Part shown: positions 2,182-49,005 of the stretch, piece by piece
Numbering within the stretch: position 1 is the stretch's first letter
How the letters are laid out: each line of letters opens with the position of its first letter
Notes under the pieces: generated by a model
Told to the model about the DNA's origin: nothing
Databases searched by the model: none
The model's input: the letters and a program-made list of their open reading frames with translations, nothing else
Virus record (IMG/VR): IMGVR_UViG_3300048904_000089
Span: 1 to 53,781 of that record
DNA: 53,781 bases
Direction: 5' to 3' (one strand)
Origin: a virus
Position numbers and translations under genes: made by a program

Positions 2182-2545
2182 GGCCCACTGCCGCTGCAAA
2201 CATTGCCGCGCACGGCGGGCGCTGCCGAAGCATCCTGGCGATTACCGGATGCGCAAGAAATGCCCGCGCTGCAAGAAGCCGCATTTCTCAGAAAGCAATG
2301 CATGCCAGACAAAGAAATGTGGATTCATTGGCATGATGACTACGCCGAAATGCAGGTCTTGCGGCGGTAGAGAATATTCGGTTGATCAGTACCGAACTGA
2401 CGGCAAGGACAAGTCTGTAACCTGCCACAGCAAAAGCTGTTGTCCATACCCGCACAGGATAGGCTCAACAAATCTCATGCCGGCTCATGGCGAAATCAAT
2501 TGTCTGTTTAACGCGGACGGCACCTACAAGGAATTCACCGAATGA
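2174..2545 (+). CDS. Cys-rich zinc-finger protein
   Basis: 123 residues and strongly basic. It has at least three Cys pairs that look like zinc ribbons (CRCKHC, CPRCKK, CRSCGG) plus CQTKKC and CHSKSCC. It resembles small phage zinc-finger regulators such as late or anti-termination factors, but no family is certain. The start at 2174 is the first ATG after the upstream gene's last codons, giving an 8-base overlap, and the stop overlaps the ParB-like start by ATGA. Its place in an early operon fits a nucleic-acid-binding role. Confidence 0.7.
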   Translation: MSKAHCRCKHCRARRALPKHPGDYRMRKKCPRCKKPHFSESNACQTKKCGFIGMMTTPKCRSCGGREYSVDQYRTDGKDKSVTCHSKSCCPYPHRIGSTNLMPAHGEINCLFNADGTYKEFTE

Positions 2546-3507
2546 CAAATGCAGCCCAACCCCAGCTCTTCACCATGAACACCCTTATCAAAGACAAGAC
2601 CGTCGGCCGAGCGGATCTTCCAAAGGTAGCCATTGAAAACCTGGTGATCGTCGAAGGCTTCAACGAGTCGCGCAAGTTCAACGATCCGGCCGAACTACGC
2701 GCCCACATCGACGGCATGAAAGCTTTCGTGCGTGGCGGCGGTACTTTGCCGCCGATTGAGGTTGCGGTTAATCCCGAGACTGGCGCCACCGAGGTGGTCG
2801 AGGGGCACTGCCGGACTACGTGTTTCCGCGAGTTGATCCTTGAGGGTTTTGAAGTTGATGGCAAACCACTGACACATGTGCCGGCCATTCCGTTCAAAGG
2901 CTCCATGGCTCAGCGTCGCGCCAGGATCGTCACCAGTAACTCTCAGTTGCCGCTCAGCGATGTCGGCCGCGCAATGGTCTACAAGGCGATGCGCGAAGAA
3001 GACCTGTTGCATCCTGACGACATTGCGGCGATGGTCAACAAGTCCCGCTCGCACGTCGACCAGATGCTTATCATTGCCGGTGCCAGCCCTGAAGTTCACC
3101 AGCAGATCGCTGACGGCGTGATCACCGTTACAGAAGCCGTGCACATCATCCGCAAGCATGGCGAAGATGCCGCCGCCGAGATCGAACGCTTAAAAGGTGT
3201 CGCAGCTGAATCCGGAAAGAAGAAAGTCACTGGCGCAGTCCGCAAGAAGGCTGTGGTTACTAAGCGGGAATGGCCGGTCAACGTCATCGCTTCGGCGCGA
3301 GCGGTTGCCAAGAGTCTGGGTGACGGCGTATTCGAGGCCGTGATTCTGGGGAATTCTCCGGAGCTGGTTGAGGTTAAGGCGGATTTGTTGGCTGAGCTTC
3401 TGATGGCGATTGCTGATGTGCCGGAGGATGAGGAGGTTGCGCTGGCTGATGATGGCCAGATGGATATGTTGGATGGCGACGATGTGCCTGCTGCGCCTAC
3501 TACTTAA
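2542..3507 (+). CDS. ParB/Srx-fold DNA-binding protein
   Basis: 321 residues. The N-terminal part carries the ParB/Srx pattern: a substrate loop, IEVAVNPETG, then VVEGHCR (G88-H89-C90-R91), the usual GxxR signature. A helix-turn-helix-like middle follows (DIAAMVNKSRSHVDQML). A lysine-rich linker (about 220-245) leads to an acidic C-terminus. There is no ParA homologue in this genome, so plasmid-style partition is not supported. ParB-like proteins in lytic phages often act as nucleases, CTP switches or transcription factors. Which applies here is unknown. Confidence 0.8.
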   Translation: MTNAAQPQLFTMNTLIKDKTVGRADLPKVAIENLVIVEGFNESRKFNDPAELRAHIDGMKAFVRGGGTLPPIEVAVNPETGATEVVEGHCRTTCFRELILEGFEVDGKPLTHVPAIPFKGSMAQRRARIVTSNSQLPLSDVGRAMVYKAMREEDLLHPDDIAAMVNKSRSHVDQMLIIAGASPEVHQQIADGVITVTEAVHIIRKHGEDAAAEIERLKGVAAESGKKKVTGAVRKKAVVTKREWPVNVIASARAVAKSLGDGVFEAVILGNSPELVEVKADLLAELLMAIADVPEDEEVALADDGQMDMLDGDDVPAAPTT

Positions 3508-40389: not shown

Positions 40390-40957
40390 GGTGCGGCGTG
40401 ATGCAGATTCGGTTGCTGAATCCGAGTTGACCTGTTTTAGAGGAAGACCCTCAACGCTTTGGCCTCGCACGACGGGCATGAGCATCAGCCTGCTCTTACA
40501 TCTGCATCGGTAAAGCATCCAATCCTGCAATCGAATCAGGATTCACCGCATGGCTAGCGGTCGCATATCTCATTGGGGCCTTTTCTAGAATATCTCCCCA
40601 ACCCCTTTTGCTAGCATCGCCTCAATGCTTTTGGATGCTTTCCGATAAAGACGATTGCCGCACGTGCGGCCACACTTCCGAGGTGATGAGCCTCCCACGG
40701 TTTACGCAAACATCTCAGGCGCTTTGATCCATGCATGGACAATGATCTGGCCAACCGGAGGGTTATGGCCGCTGCCCTGTGATGCATCCCGAAGCCGTGA
40801 CGGGTATTGCACCGAAGATTTGAGCATCGCAGAGAGGCTTATCGGTTTGGCGCTGGTTGATGCTGAAACGGGTGGCACATCCCCACAAGCAGGTTATTCG
40901 CTTCCGTTGATGACCTGGCGCCAGACCATTCGGTATCGCGACTCCTTTCCGTAACTC
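40390..40957. other. Gap of about 570 bp without a convincing gene
   Basis: No frame here has a good start and ribosome-binding sequence. A 99-codon plus-strand frame (40655-40954) and a minus-strand frame (about 40709-40891, ...GHNPPVGQIIVHAWIKAPEMFA) are partly open and read like protein, but both lack starts and the minus frame contains stops. There is a perfect 14-bp palindrome, GCCGCACGTGCGGC (40657-40670), and a quasi-palindrome at 40909-40928. It may be a decayed gene, structured RNA, or packaging site. Confidence 0.4.
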
Positions 40958-41193: not shown

Positions 41194-41303
41194 TCCTTTC
41201 TGTCCGGTGTAATTGCTATTCGTGTACCGCCTAAGCTTCGTTCGCCCGGACTCAAAGTCTGCCTGATCTAGGCTCAAGCGATACGCGAATAACAACTGCA
41301 GAT

Positions 41304-41467: not shown

Positions 41468-41511
41468 CACATCTCCAAAAATAAATTCCTGACTTTCTGG
41501 TAAGGAAAATT

Positions 41512-41866
41512 CTGTGCTACCTGAGGGGTCGCTGAGGGGTGGCAACTAGCACAGCTCCAGCCCAGTAAATACGTGGCTTACAGAGTGGTTGTGCTACCTG
41601 AGGGGTGATTTTAAAAAAAATATATTTATAGAAATATTCTTATTTGGGAATATTTCTCATTTTATTAGCGGAAACGTGCATAAGCCTAAAACGCCCCTCA
41701 GTTAGCACAGAATGGCTGAAATGCACGTCCTAGAGAGTCGCAAGCTGTGCAAGATCGACTAGCACAGCGCCCCTCAATGTCGCACAGATTTTGCGTTTTT
41801 TGCGATGAGTGGCGTGTTATCTCAAACAACTCGCTACTCTCATACACCTCATACACCTCATACAGT
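41512..41866. other. Candidate replication origin with iterons and AT-rich segment
   Basis: About 350 bp without genes, full of related repeats. CTGTGCTACCTGAGGGGT at 41512-41529 recurs nearly exactly at 41590-41606. Inverted copies are at 41692-41710 and, diverged, at 41768-41787. Part-copies are CTGAGGGGT (41532-41540) and inverted CTGTGCTAG (41546-41554, 41759-41767). Between them lies a strongly AT-rich run (about 41608-41668) with a palindrome. Three tandem CTCATACA(C/G) units are at 41839-41865. Iterons plus an AT-rich unwinding segment next to the DUF3987 gene is the usual make-up of a theta origin. Confidence 0.7.
41630..41657. repeat. Perfect AT-rich inverted repeat in the origin candidate
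   Basis: AGAAATATTC (41630-41639) and GAATATTTCT (41648-41657) form a perfect 10-bp inverted repeat around 8 bases. It lies inside the most AT-rich stretch of the window, where strand opening would be easiest. Confidence 0.8.
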
Positions 41867-41887
41867 CCAAGTAAATAAATTAGCCGA

Positions 41888-41917
41888 TTGACATTGCGAT
41901 TGTCGCCAAACTACCAT
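41888..41917 (+). promoter_or_regulatory. Rightward promoter for the DUF3987 operon
   Basis: TTGACA (41888-41893), 18-bp spacer, TACCAT (41912-41917), 29 bp before the start at 41946. It lies directly after the three CTCATACA repeats and has no CTATAG, unlike most of the other promoters, so it may be regulated from the origin. Confidence 0.65.
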
Positions 41918-41945: not shown

Positions 41946-42173
41946 ATGCAGATACAGAAAGGCCCATGCCCACCTGAGTTTTTCAAGAAAGCCACTCCGA
42001 CCAAATACAGGTTTGGCGAAATGGACGTTGGGAACTGGTTCTTGGTTGACAGCATCGAGGAAGCCGAGCGCGCACAAAATGCCGCATACAGCTACGGCCG
42101 GCGCAAGAGCAATGGCTTCAAGCTTTCCATGTCGAAAAGCAATGATAAGTATTGCCTGAAGAGGGTTTCGTAA
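41946..42173 (+). CDS. Small hypothetical protein, first gene after the origin
   Basis: 75 residues from ATG 41946 (GGAG upstream; the ATG at 41916 lacks a ribosome-binding sequence). GNWFLVDSIEEAERAQNAAYSYGRRKSNGFKLSMSKSN looks like small phage DNA-binding or regulatory proteins that share this W-x-x-VDSxEEA... pattern. The stop overlaps the DUF3987 start as TAATG. Confidence 0.7.
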   Translation: MQIQKGPCPPEFFKKATPTKYRFGEMDVGNWFLVDSIEEAERAQNAAYSYGRRKSNGFKLSMSKSNDKYCLKRVS

Positions 42174-43801
42174 TGTCGGAAAATCCTCTCAACGGAATTG
42201 ATATATCAAGTATTCCTGATTTCGAGGCAGCACCAATCCATGCTTATTCAGACGTTATGCCTGACGAAGAAGATTTCGAGGTCAGCCTTTTTGATGTTGG
42301 CGTTGGCTTTGTCGACACCAACGACTATGACCATGAAGTTGCTGCAGATTTGAAAGAGGCGGCTCCGGTAAAAAAATCTTCCGCCGACCTGGCAAAGGCC
42401 CCTGTTCCTCGCAGAAAACCCAAGCCAGAAGTTACATCTTCCATTGAGCGGATAGAGCAATACATCCAGCTTCCAGATGGCGTAAAAGGTACTGTTATCG
42501 GCAAGTATGCAACTTCGGTAGCTACAGCAATTGAATTCCCTGAAACCAGCGCATTTATGGTGTTCCTGGCGTGCGCAAGTGCGGCCGTTGCTTGTAACTA
42601 TGCCGTGCAGTTCAAGTTCGGCGACAGCTTGCCAACTGGTCTTTATGTAATTGTCGAGCAGCCGCCGTCCACGCAGAAAAGCCGGATCCTGGGCGCGGCC
42701 TTGAACTCTTACCTGATTAGTATGGGCAAGCACAACCGCATTGTTTTCAGCAAGCTCCGGGAGGCCAAAGAGGGGAATCCAGAGGTTGCCGAATGGCTGC
42801 GGCCAGGATTCCTTTCGACGACAGACGCAACTACCGCTGCAATGGATAAGGCCATGGCTGGCCTATCTGAAGGTCGATTCGTTATTGCCACCGATGAAAA
42901 ATCCATTCTCGGATCTTTATTCCCGCCGGCTACATCATTCGCCAGCAGCAACGACATTGTGCTTAAGGGGTATACGGGCGACCGAGTTGCCTCGATGCGC
43001 AGTGGGCGTCTTGCGTTCAGCGGTCGGGCGAATGGCACGGTTGTCATCAACGCGCAGGGCGGTGCATCAGCCAGGATTCTTCGCGAGTCTGACGGGTCTG
43101 GTATGGCTGAACGCTTCTTCTTTGTTTCGGAGCCTAGCTATCTTGGCTCTCGAACATTTGATGAACATCCAATCGACGCCGAGGTTAAAAAGGCATACGA
43201 CAACGCATCAATTGGGTGTGTACAGGCCTACTCAAAAGCGATCCTAAAATACGCGATGGCCGATGAGCAGTCAAAAGTCACGCTTGACCCTGAAAACCTT
43301 GAGCAGCTTAGGCTGACCGCTGCGGGCTACGAAAAGATCCGGATTTATCGCCGCGAAAATGAGCCGCTAATGGCCGAGCTTGAACGTGCCGGCGAGATGG
43401 TAATGCTTTCATGGCTTGGAAAATTCGAGGCGCACGTATTGAAGATCGCCGCGGTTCTTCATGTTTACGAATGCATCGGCAACGGAAGCAAGGTATCCAG
43501 CGTAATCACCGACAAGATTCTGGTTGCCGCCATGGAGCTTGTTGATTTGATGGCTGACCACCAGCAGCAAATGATCCGCGACTCTGGTGACTCTGGGTCT
43601 GATGCAGAAGAGCAGGTGGTTATTGAGGCGCTCGGATCCAGCAAAATGGCATTAAGAGCGCTGCTTCAAAAGATCAGGTATCGCAAGCCATTCAGCTCAA
43701 TGGGTAAGAATGGCTATTCAGCGGCCAAGCGCCGAGTTGAGACAATGGTCTCTGGCGGCGTAATCGTTATTAACGCCTCGGGAACCCTGGAGGTCGTATG
43801 A
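42173..43801 (+). CDS. DUF3987 helicase-like replication protein
   Basis: 542 residues. After an acidic N-terminal region, the DUF3987 ATPase-like core has a degenerate P-loop (VEQPPSTQKSR, K169-S170), a Walker B-like VIATDEKS (D241-E242) and an arginine-finger-like GMAERFFF (R314). The C-terminal part has a helix-turn-helix-like ALRALLQKIRYRKPFSS...AKRRVETMV. DUF3987 proteins are found with primases in phages and plasmids and are thought to act as replicative helicases or initiators. It is the first large gene beside the origin candidate, which supports an initiator role. Confidence 0.8.
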   Translation: MSENPLNGIDISSIPDFEAAPIHAYSDVMPDEEDFEVSLFDVGVGFVDTNDYDHEVAADLKEAAPVKKSSADLAKAPVPRRKPKPEVTSSIERIEQYIQLPDGVKGTVIGKYATSVATAIEFPETSAFMVFLACASAAVACNYAVQFKFGDSLPTGLYVIVEQPPSTQKSRILGAALNSYLISMGKHNRIVFSKLREAKEGNPEVAEWLRPGFLSTTDATTAAMDKAMAGLSEGRFVIATDEKSILGSLFPPATSFASSNDIVLKGYTGDRVASMRSGRLAFSGRANGTVVINAQGGASARILRESDGSGMAERFFFVSEPSYLGSRTFDEHPIDAEVKKAYDNASIGCVQAYSKAILKYAMADEQSKVTLDPENLEQLRLTAAGYEKIRIYRRENEPLMAELERAGEMVMLSWLGKFEAHVLKIAAVLHVYECIGNGSKVSSVITDKILVAAMELVDLMADHQQQMIRDSGDSGSDAEEQVVIEALGSSKMALRALLQKIRYRKPFSSMGKNGYSAAKRRVETMVSGGVIVINASGTLEVV

Positions 43802-48643: not shown

Positions 48644-48819
48644 AGCCGCGCAACGCAATTTACATCGGCGGCCCTCCACTGGATCCGCCGGACGAAGCGC
48701 CGATTATCCACTGCAAATTCTGCAAGAAGAAATCACTGCGCACCGAATGGGTACGCAACCACTGGCACTGCCCCGTCTGTCACGAAGAAGACGCGGCCGG
48801 GATTACTGAAGAGGATTGA
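48640..48819 (+). CDS. Small zinc-ribbon protein
   Basis: 59 residues, one zinc ribbon: CKFCKKK and CPVCHEED about 20 residues apart. Common phage mini-protein design; role unknown. Confidence 0.65.
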   Translation: MKPRNAIYIGGPPLDPPDEAPIIHCKFCKKKSLRTEWVRNHWHCPVCHEEDAAGITEED

Positions 48820-48822
48820 GTG

Positions 48823-49005
48823 ATGGACAACAAGCAGCTCCAAATTCTTGCGTTGATCATGGCGGCAAATGCTCGGGTAATCGGCATGCAGGCCGGGAAT
48901 GACCAGCGAAAGGTTCAAGGCGATTCGATGATGTACAGCGAGGATCACTTTCTGGCCGAGGCAGTACACCTCGAAACGCTATCGGTGCAGGCGATCAACT
49001 CATGA
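48823..49005 (+). CDS. Small helical protein
   Basis: 60 residues: LQILALIMAANARVIGMQAGNDQRKVQGDSMMYSEDHFLAEAVHL. Matches a common phage accessory pattern that ends in helical AEAxxLE. The ATG at 48823 follows GAGG by 10 bases. Unknown role. Confidence 0.6.
   Translation: MDNKQLQILALIMAANARVIGMQAGNDQRKVQGDSMMYSEDHFLAEAVHLETLSVQAINS

Follow-up and report, generated by a model that had tools for sequence, protein, structure and literature searches.

A double-armed iteron array upstream of a DUF3987 gene as a probable replication origin of a tailed phage

The IMG/VR virus record IMGVR_UViG_3300048904_000089 was analysed over its whole length of 53,781 nucleotides, which is referred to as the window in the following, and its positions 41488-41790 are very probably the replication origin of the phage, where the protein DUF3987 would bind iterons, open an AT-rich core and thus allow bidirectional theta replication. 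The region carries an array of short repeats with a fixed geometry, in which the repeat unit has been replaced as a block among relatives and which is linked to DUF3987 rather than to the terminase. From the analogy to known systems we infer the binding of DUF3987 to the iterons, the unwinding of the core and the origin activity itself. A preliminary description of the sequence had already placed an origin beside an initiator-like DUF3987 gene, and this conclusion is largely supported by the comparative evidence, whereas the rationale needs correcting.

Iterons in two arms around an AT-rich core

The stretch is free of genes, as had been described before, and harbors 12 iteron sites between positions 41513 and 41786 in the strand order >>><>> core <<><<< (Table 1). 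The array units are 9 bp long and occur in two forms, whereby seven sites show TGTGC and five TGAGGGG. Counted from the anchor on the left, the sites are located at 26, 35, 46, 62 / 103, 112 / core / 208, 218 / 259, 275, 284, 295. Comparison with 2000 dinucleotide shuffles yielded a longest exact direct repeat of 17 nt against 12 nt or less in the shuffles, seven copies of TGTGC against a mean of 0.7 and a maximum of 4, and five copies of TGAGGGG against a mean of 0.03 and a maximum of 2. What had been taken for a 17-18 bp repeat is the tandem pair of TGTGCTAC and TGAGGGGT. Its two direct copies, CTGTGCTACCTGAGGGGT at 41512-41529 and TTGTGCTACCTGAGGGGT at 41589-41606, are indeed identical at 17 of 17 positions, whereas the true unit, as judged from the relatives, is the 9-bp half. 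Instead of the two full inverted copies suggested previously there is one near-full copy at 41693-41710 (16/18), while at 41757-41779 the two halves are present in reversed order, so that they do not form a full inverted copy. The two words are mixed in the window and in the loci L044 and L049, whose inner pairs have the TGTGC form outside and the TGAGGGG form inside.

The AT-rich core between the two arms holds the lowest-GC 64-mer of the entire genome (41604-41669, GC 16%) and contains the perfect 10-bp inverted repeat AGAAATATTC/GAATATTTCT (41630-41639/41648-41657). Both features had been proposed in the preliminary description and are thereby confirmed, whereby the inverted repeat is not conserved in relatives. 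A genome scan for AT-rich segments flanked by repeats of inverted sense ranked this site first. From 34.7 to 48.7 kb no DnaA box (TTATCCACA) was detected when up to one mismatch was allowed.

A fixed geometry that follows DUF3987 and not the terminase

The relatives considered here are IMG/VR homologues of DUF3987 with 38-89% identity. Their arrays are located at the same place and every unit comprises 8-9 bp, and thus the 17-18 bp repeat of the window is a tandem pair. In about 20 loci the slot order is the same and the positions are nearly the same, while the units are different. The loci L006, L022, and L039 (TGAGTCT) have the strand string of the window with sites at 27-28, 37, 48, 63, 105, 114 / 211, 220, 262, 277, 288, 298, and the same string is found in L046 (TGAGTGC) and L012/L063 (TGTGCCC/TGTGCTC). 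The window order is kept over the first ten slots in L018/L051 (TGCGGGC and ACGTGC) as well as in L011, L015, L054, L058, and L064 (TGTGCTC/CCC). Except for the ACGTGC form, every unit fits TGnGnnn. Because slot positions and order match across different words, the unit has been replaced as a block with the geometry being retained. It had been stated beforehand that absence or scrambling of the repeats in close relatives would speak against an origin; across the relatives the repeat words are absent as sequence, but conserved as layout. The full 16-base word gave 48 matches in viral contigs with more than one copy only in L126 (the contig of L044), and the word alone therefore fails to find the relatives. 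The anchor pattern has 18 exact matches in 2.9 million viral contigs, of which at least 13 adjoin an iteron array. When the 500-bp region was compared with phages and plasmids by blastn, nothing significant was obtained. Genome contigs gave a single distant match (Ferrimonas, 27%), upstream of which no array was recognised by reading.

Natural recombinants separate DUF3987 from the terminase. L044, in which DUF3987 is 67% and TerL 27% identical to the window and TerS is unrelated, has window-type iterons with the inner pair CTGTGCTAGTTGAGGGGT, and L005 (DUF3987 88%, TerL 28%) has window-type TGAGGGG iterons. L024, with TerL at 88% and DUF3987 at 42% (94-aa fragment), carries L018-type iterons. 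Across 17 loci the iteron distance correlated with the distance of the DUF3987 winged helix (rho 0.68), of its AAA+ (ATPases associated with diverse cellular activities) part (0.54) and of a 75-aa protein encoded next to it (0.47), and gave a rho of -0.10 with TerS; the partial correlation of winged helix and iterons given the AAA+ part was 0.48. In these correlations the slot words were read by hand. The statistics ignore shared ancestry, which has to be counted against the origin reading. The initiator would recognise the iterons by its C-terminal domain, for which a winged helix is predicted and whose divergence tracks the iterons best.

Cos/pac regions typically have repeats next to terS, and in the window the array directly adjoins terS and terL, which are located on its left and are transcribed away from it; together with an anchor that is conserved like a recognition site, this would fit a packaging site (pac/cos) with repeats bound by the terminase. 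The recombinants and the correlations speak against such a site and point to DUF3987 as the protein that reads the iterons: the iteron type does not track TerS or TerL, as L005 and L044 have window-type iterons in spite of 27-28% TerL identity and L024 has other iterons in spite of 88%. Furthermore, packaging has no need of an AT core or of two head-to-head arms. A terminase site was rejected because the site fails to co-vary with the terminase in these recombinants, and we consider it highly improbable.

It might also be that the array serves as operator for divergent early and late promoters, regulated possibly by DUF3987 or the 75-aa protein, and is no origin at all. Its position in a divergent intergenic region, the second repeat set (CTCATACAC in three copies) at a possible promoter and the fact that initiators commonly autoregulate would be in line with this. 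However, twelve sites in two mirror-image arms, with the segment of highest AT content in the genome between them, would be excessive for an operator, as would be a core length and slot order that are kept though the sequence changes, and the divergence of the 75-aa ORF (open reading frame) follows the iterons less closely than that of the winged helix; we therefore rate an operator as very improbable. Finally, a ParB-like protein (PHROG 1033; window 2542-3507, plus strand), which was found in each of the 15 relatives searched whose contigs exceed 40 kb, could use the array as a parS-like partition site. On the circle, about 14 kb separate its gene from the array, the iterons are not palindromic in contrast to parS sites, and the AT core would be left unexplained. 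Moreover, ParA was not seen among the proteins scanned, although no search aimed at it was made. A partition site appears extremely improbable to us.

The DUF3987 protein, the proposed mechanism and the surroundings of the array

The DUF3987 protein matches PF13148 (E 5.7e-28, 98.6 bits versus a cut-off of 27) and PHROG 2373 “DNA helicase.” Its AlphaFold model, based on 24 sequences, has a mean pLDDT (predicted local distance difference test) of 77 with residues 1-92 being disordered. It shows an AAA+ core, which is followed at the C-terminus (about residues 476-541) by a winged helix with the succession helix-helix-helix-hairpin, whereby the domains were assigned by the author from the secondary structure of the model. 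A Foldseek search of the PDB with the model gave 144 matches at E<=1e-3, and subunits of minichromosome maintenance (MCM) proteins make up the whole of the top 50 (E 1.6e-6 to 1.3e-4). Among the viral structure models matched are a DUF927 protein and DUF3987 proteins that carry primase or helicase annotations. At the level of the fold, DUF3987 is thus predicted to be MCM-like, with an AAA+ core and a winged helix at its C-terminus. Its Walker A sequence EQPPSTQKS differs from GxxGxGKS and resembles the MCM form GDPSTAKS; the Walker B region is TDE. The P-loop described previously as degenerate does lack the classical glycine, but with its MCM-like motif and predicted fold it need not be inactive. 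The open frames that hold the DUF3987 homologues of L062 and L066 span 748-822 aa and, being extended far at the N-terminus, are probably primase fusions. The family has been predicted as a helicase family of mobile elements (PMC5862659).

By analogy with the Rep protein of Staphylococcus aureus pathogenicity islands (SaPI), Cch2, and the origins of phage-inducible chromosomal islands (PICI), DUF3987 would bind the 8-9 bp iterons of both arms via its C-terminal winged helix, which would set two oligomers, probably hexamers, head to head at the flanks of the AT-rich core. The core would be opened by ATP-driven distortion, and the two rings might themselves turn into the helicases of a bidirectional theta replication or else recruit them. 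The preliminary description had noted that no polymerase is encoded, but had also counted on a primase gene; neither primase nor polymerase turned up among the roughly 30 window proteins scanned (Pfam and others, some small ORFs being left out), so that the host replisome would copy the DNA.

Several further points weigh against this reading. The TM-scores between DUF3987 and the MCM fold are low (about 0.3), and at the level of sequence profiles no MCM protein was found in the PDB by hmmsearch at E<=10. The Walker A motif is atypical, and most relatives have AEQ instead of the Walker B DE; from these motifs, the ATPase or helicase activity of DUF3987 may be weak or absent. As the array of the window uses two units, a second binding protein is possible, and the ParB-like protein, being likewise conserved family-wide, is another possible reader of the iterons. 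The GC skew, which had been proposed as a check, lends weak support: only after detrending does the circle have its cumulative minimum near the site, at 42009 and some 370 bp off the core. Since the genes are transcribed divergently here, this minimum is confounded, and Amjad_SA has its own minimum at a great distance from its array.

On the right, the array is followed by three copies of a 9-bp unit, CTCATACAC/G, which had been noticed before and were confirmed at 41839-41865, although the next gene is the 75-aa ORF and not, as stated then, the DUF3987 gene, which starts at 42173. These copies are possibly regulatory. They belong to a second set of short direct repeats with a period of about 9-12 bp, which occurs at 41790-41900 and at the same place in L006, L011, and L012; these clade-specific repeats (CTCATACAC, CTCAA, CTAAG, AAGG-like) are located between the last iteron and the possible promoter of the rightward operon. 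For the 75-aa protein a beta-alpha-beta-beta structure was predicted, and a structure search with it gave no significant match.

Table 1. Coordinates of the array, its core and the adjacent features in the window
Feature	Position	Strand	Remark
Anchor CCTGACTTNNNNGTAAGGAAA	41488..41508	+	conserved, immediately left of iteron 1
Iteron 1, TGTGCTA	41513..41519	+	
Iteron 2, TGAGGGG	41522..41528	+	
Iteron 3, TGAGGGG	41533..41539	+	
Iteron 4, TGTGCTA	41547..41553	-	
Spacer element AAATACGTGGCTTACAG	41567..41583	+	kept in relatives; L005 has an extra inverted copy right of the core
Iteron 5, TGTGCTA	41590..41596	+	inner left pair
Iteron 6, TGAGGGG	41599..41605	+	inner left pair
AT-rich core, putative unwinding element	41606..41693	.	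88 nt, GC 0.25
Iteron 7, TGAGGGG	41694..41700	-	inner right pair
Iteron 8, TGTGCTA	41703..41709	-	inner right pair
Iteron 9, TGTGCAA	41746..41752	+	partial match; slot also filled in relatives
Iteron 10, TGTGCTA	41760..41766	-	
Iteron 11, TGAGGGG	41770..41776	-	
Iteron 12, TGTGCGA	41780..41786	-	partial match
CTCATACAC/G, three copies	41839..41865	+	just 5' of possible promoter (TTGACA 41888, TACCAT 41912)
75-aa conserved protein	41946..42170	+	always directly 5' of DUF3987 in the clade
DUF3987 protein, ~541 aa, putative origin-binding initiator/helicase	42173..43801	+	start ATG 42173

The gene-free stretch separates the leftward terS/terL operon, which also includes two tRNA genes, from the rightward operon. 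Further ORFs of the window form a long block that is likewise oriented leftward. The ends of the 54-kb record overlap exactly over 127 b, which looks like an assembly k-mer overlap and suggests a circular or circularly permuted genome. Some small elements were observed in addition. An abiF RNA match (Rfam RF03085) at 40810-40846 on the minus strand scores 40.7 bits versus a threshold of 37 and has an intact conserved core; no abiF-type gene was seen alongside, where terS and terL are the neighbours, and the match is absent from the loci of 14 relatives. This RNA could be a decoy against an AbiF-like defence of the host. At 41216-41300 an imperfect 10-bp inverted repeat, TATTCGTGTA/TACGCGAATA, encloses the anticodon-arm-like CGGACTCAAAGTCTG; it is possibly a decayed tRNA, and neither ARAGORN nor Rfam made a call there. 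The motif GCGAATAACAACTTCAGATTTAAAGAGCG is present in L004 and L051, with a near-match in the window.

Generality and relation to known replication systems

Outside the 38-89% clade an array is clear only for Vibrio phage 1.291.O, in which TCGCA is significantly repeated (11 times upstream of DUF3987, 0/500 shuffles). The arrays of the far relatives SB28, pYD38-B, and L068 are suggestive and that of L067 is not significant, whereas in AAS23 and ESP2949-1 the sequence directly upstream of DUF3987 showed no recognisable array. In phage T1 (L069), positions 48687-48836 plus 1-539 comprise a divergent intergenic region with GATTAAC/CGATTA repeats on both sides of a very AT-rich segment of about 110 bp; the repeat 7-mer was reached in 8/500 shuffles, and the region may serve as a lead to the unlocated origin of T1. 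On the reverse strand of L023 the first 18 bases of the anchor are duplicated, and 200-370 bases past the anchor there are GCGAGATA repeats, which are paired and occur in both orientations. They are located 3' of a protein whose end resembles another AAA+/winged-helix replication protein, so that gene and origin possibly stand in the same order as in PICI.

More than 1,100 phage records contain DUF3987 proteins, which are mostly annotated as helicase or unknown, and no report locating an origin of a DUF3987 phage was found in the literature searched. The T1-like phage TLS was reported without origin repeats anywhere (PMC11447400), and for AAS23 no origin-binding protein was found (PMC8004638). 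The natural specificity variants of the origin/initiator pair make origin recognition by an MCM-like protein of a bacterial virus directly testable. It is conceivable, if rather unlikely, that the array is a scaffold of 10-12 slots in which the recognition word is rewritten as a block, with two-word arrays as intermediates read by a bispecific initiator, with turnover driven by conflict with satellites, rival phages or origin-directed nucleases, and with an MCM-type reader in a bacterial virus.

The preliminary description had compared the region with the iteron layout of theta plasmids (RK2/TrfA, P1, Rep_3), and the half-site TGAGGGG resembles the RK2 iteron. As in these plasmids, the iterons adjoin an AT-rich segment. 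However, theta plasmids have longer, all-direct repeats on one side, a WH1-WH2 Rep protein and DnaA boxes, none of which was found here, and the sets of the array are head to head around the core. A Rep_3/TrfA-type origin was rejected, as there was no Rep_3/TrfA match among the proteins scanned with Pfam. The double hexamers of simian virus 40 (SV40) T-antigen, papillomavirus E1 and eukaryotic-archaeal MCM are comparable in their logic, by which two AAA+ rings face each other head to head across a segment to be melted, and in the MCM-like fold; in contrast, T-antigen and E1 have their origin-binding domain at the N-terminus, and DUF3987 has no detectable sequence homology to solved structures.

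The RepA/ori system of the phage-inducible chromosomal island-like element (PLE) of Vibrio cholerae shares a change of the origin thought to be selected by an origin-directed nuclease, and initiator and iterons covary there with evidence of such selection (PMC8263062), but it uses a RepA_N initiator without helicase and three semi-palindromic repeats of about 30 bp (PMC7145576, PMC8263062). The Cch/Cch2 module of the staphylococcal cassette chromosome mec (SCCmec) encodes a self-loading AAA+ helicase, and the isolated C-terminal domain of Cch2 binds the short origin repeats; it differs in having just three 5-nt iterons downstream of the gene and in its DUF927 or Primase_Cterm families (PMC7581432). 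A close likeness is also seen to the rep-ori segments of PICI and SaPI elements such as SaPIbov1 and EcCICFT073. An AT-rich region flanked by two sets of iterons is a constant feature of PICI origins, and the rep+ori segment drives replication (PMC6092414); SaPI Rep recognises the iterons by its C-terminal domain (PMC7581432). Common to both are thus two sets of short iterons around an AT-rich segment, an element-encoded AAA+ initiator-helicase and units that vary between elements (PMC6092414, PMC7581432). Unlike the satellites, the window represents a complete tailed phage with terL and terS, its origin lies 5' of a small ORF and DUF3987 instead of 3' of rep, the initiator belongs to DUF3987 instead of the DUF927 or D5-type Rep proteins, and 10-12 sites occupy fixed slots with two alternating units. 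The array of the window would therefore be a double-armed origin of the satellite type in a new form, which is carried by complete phages and differs in initiator family, position and slot geometry.
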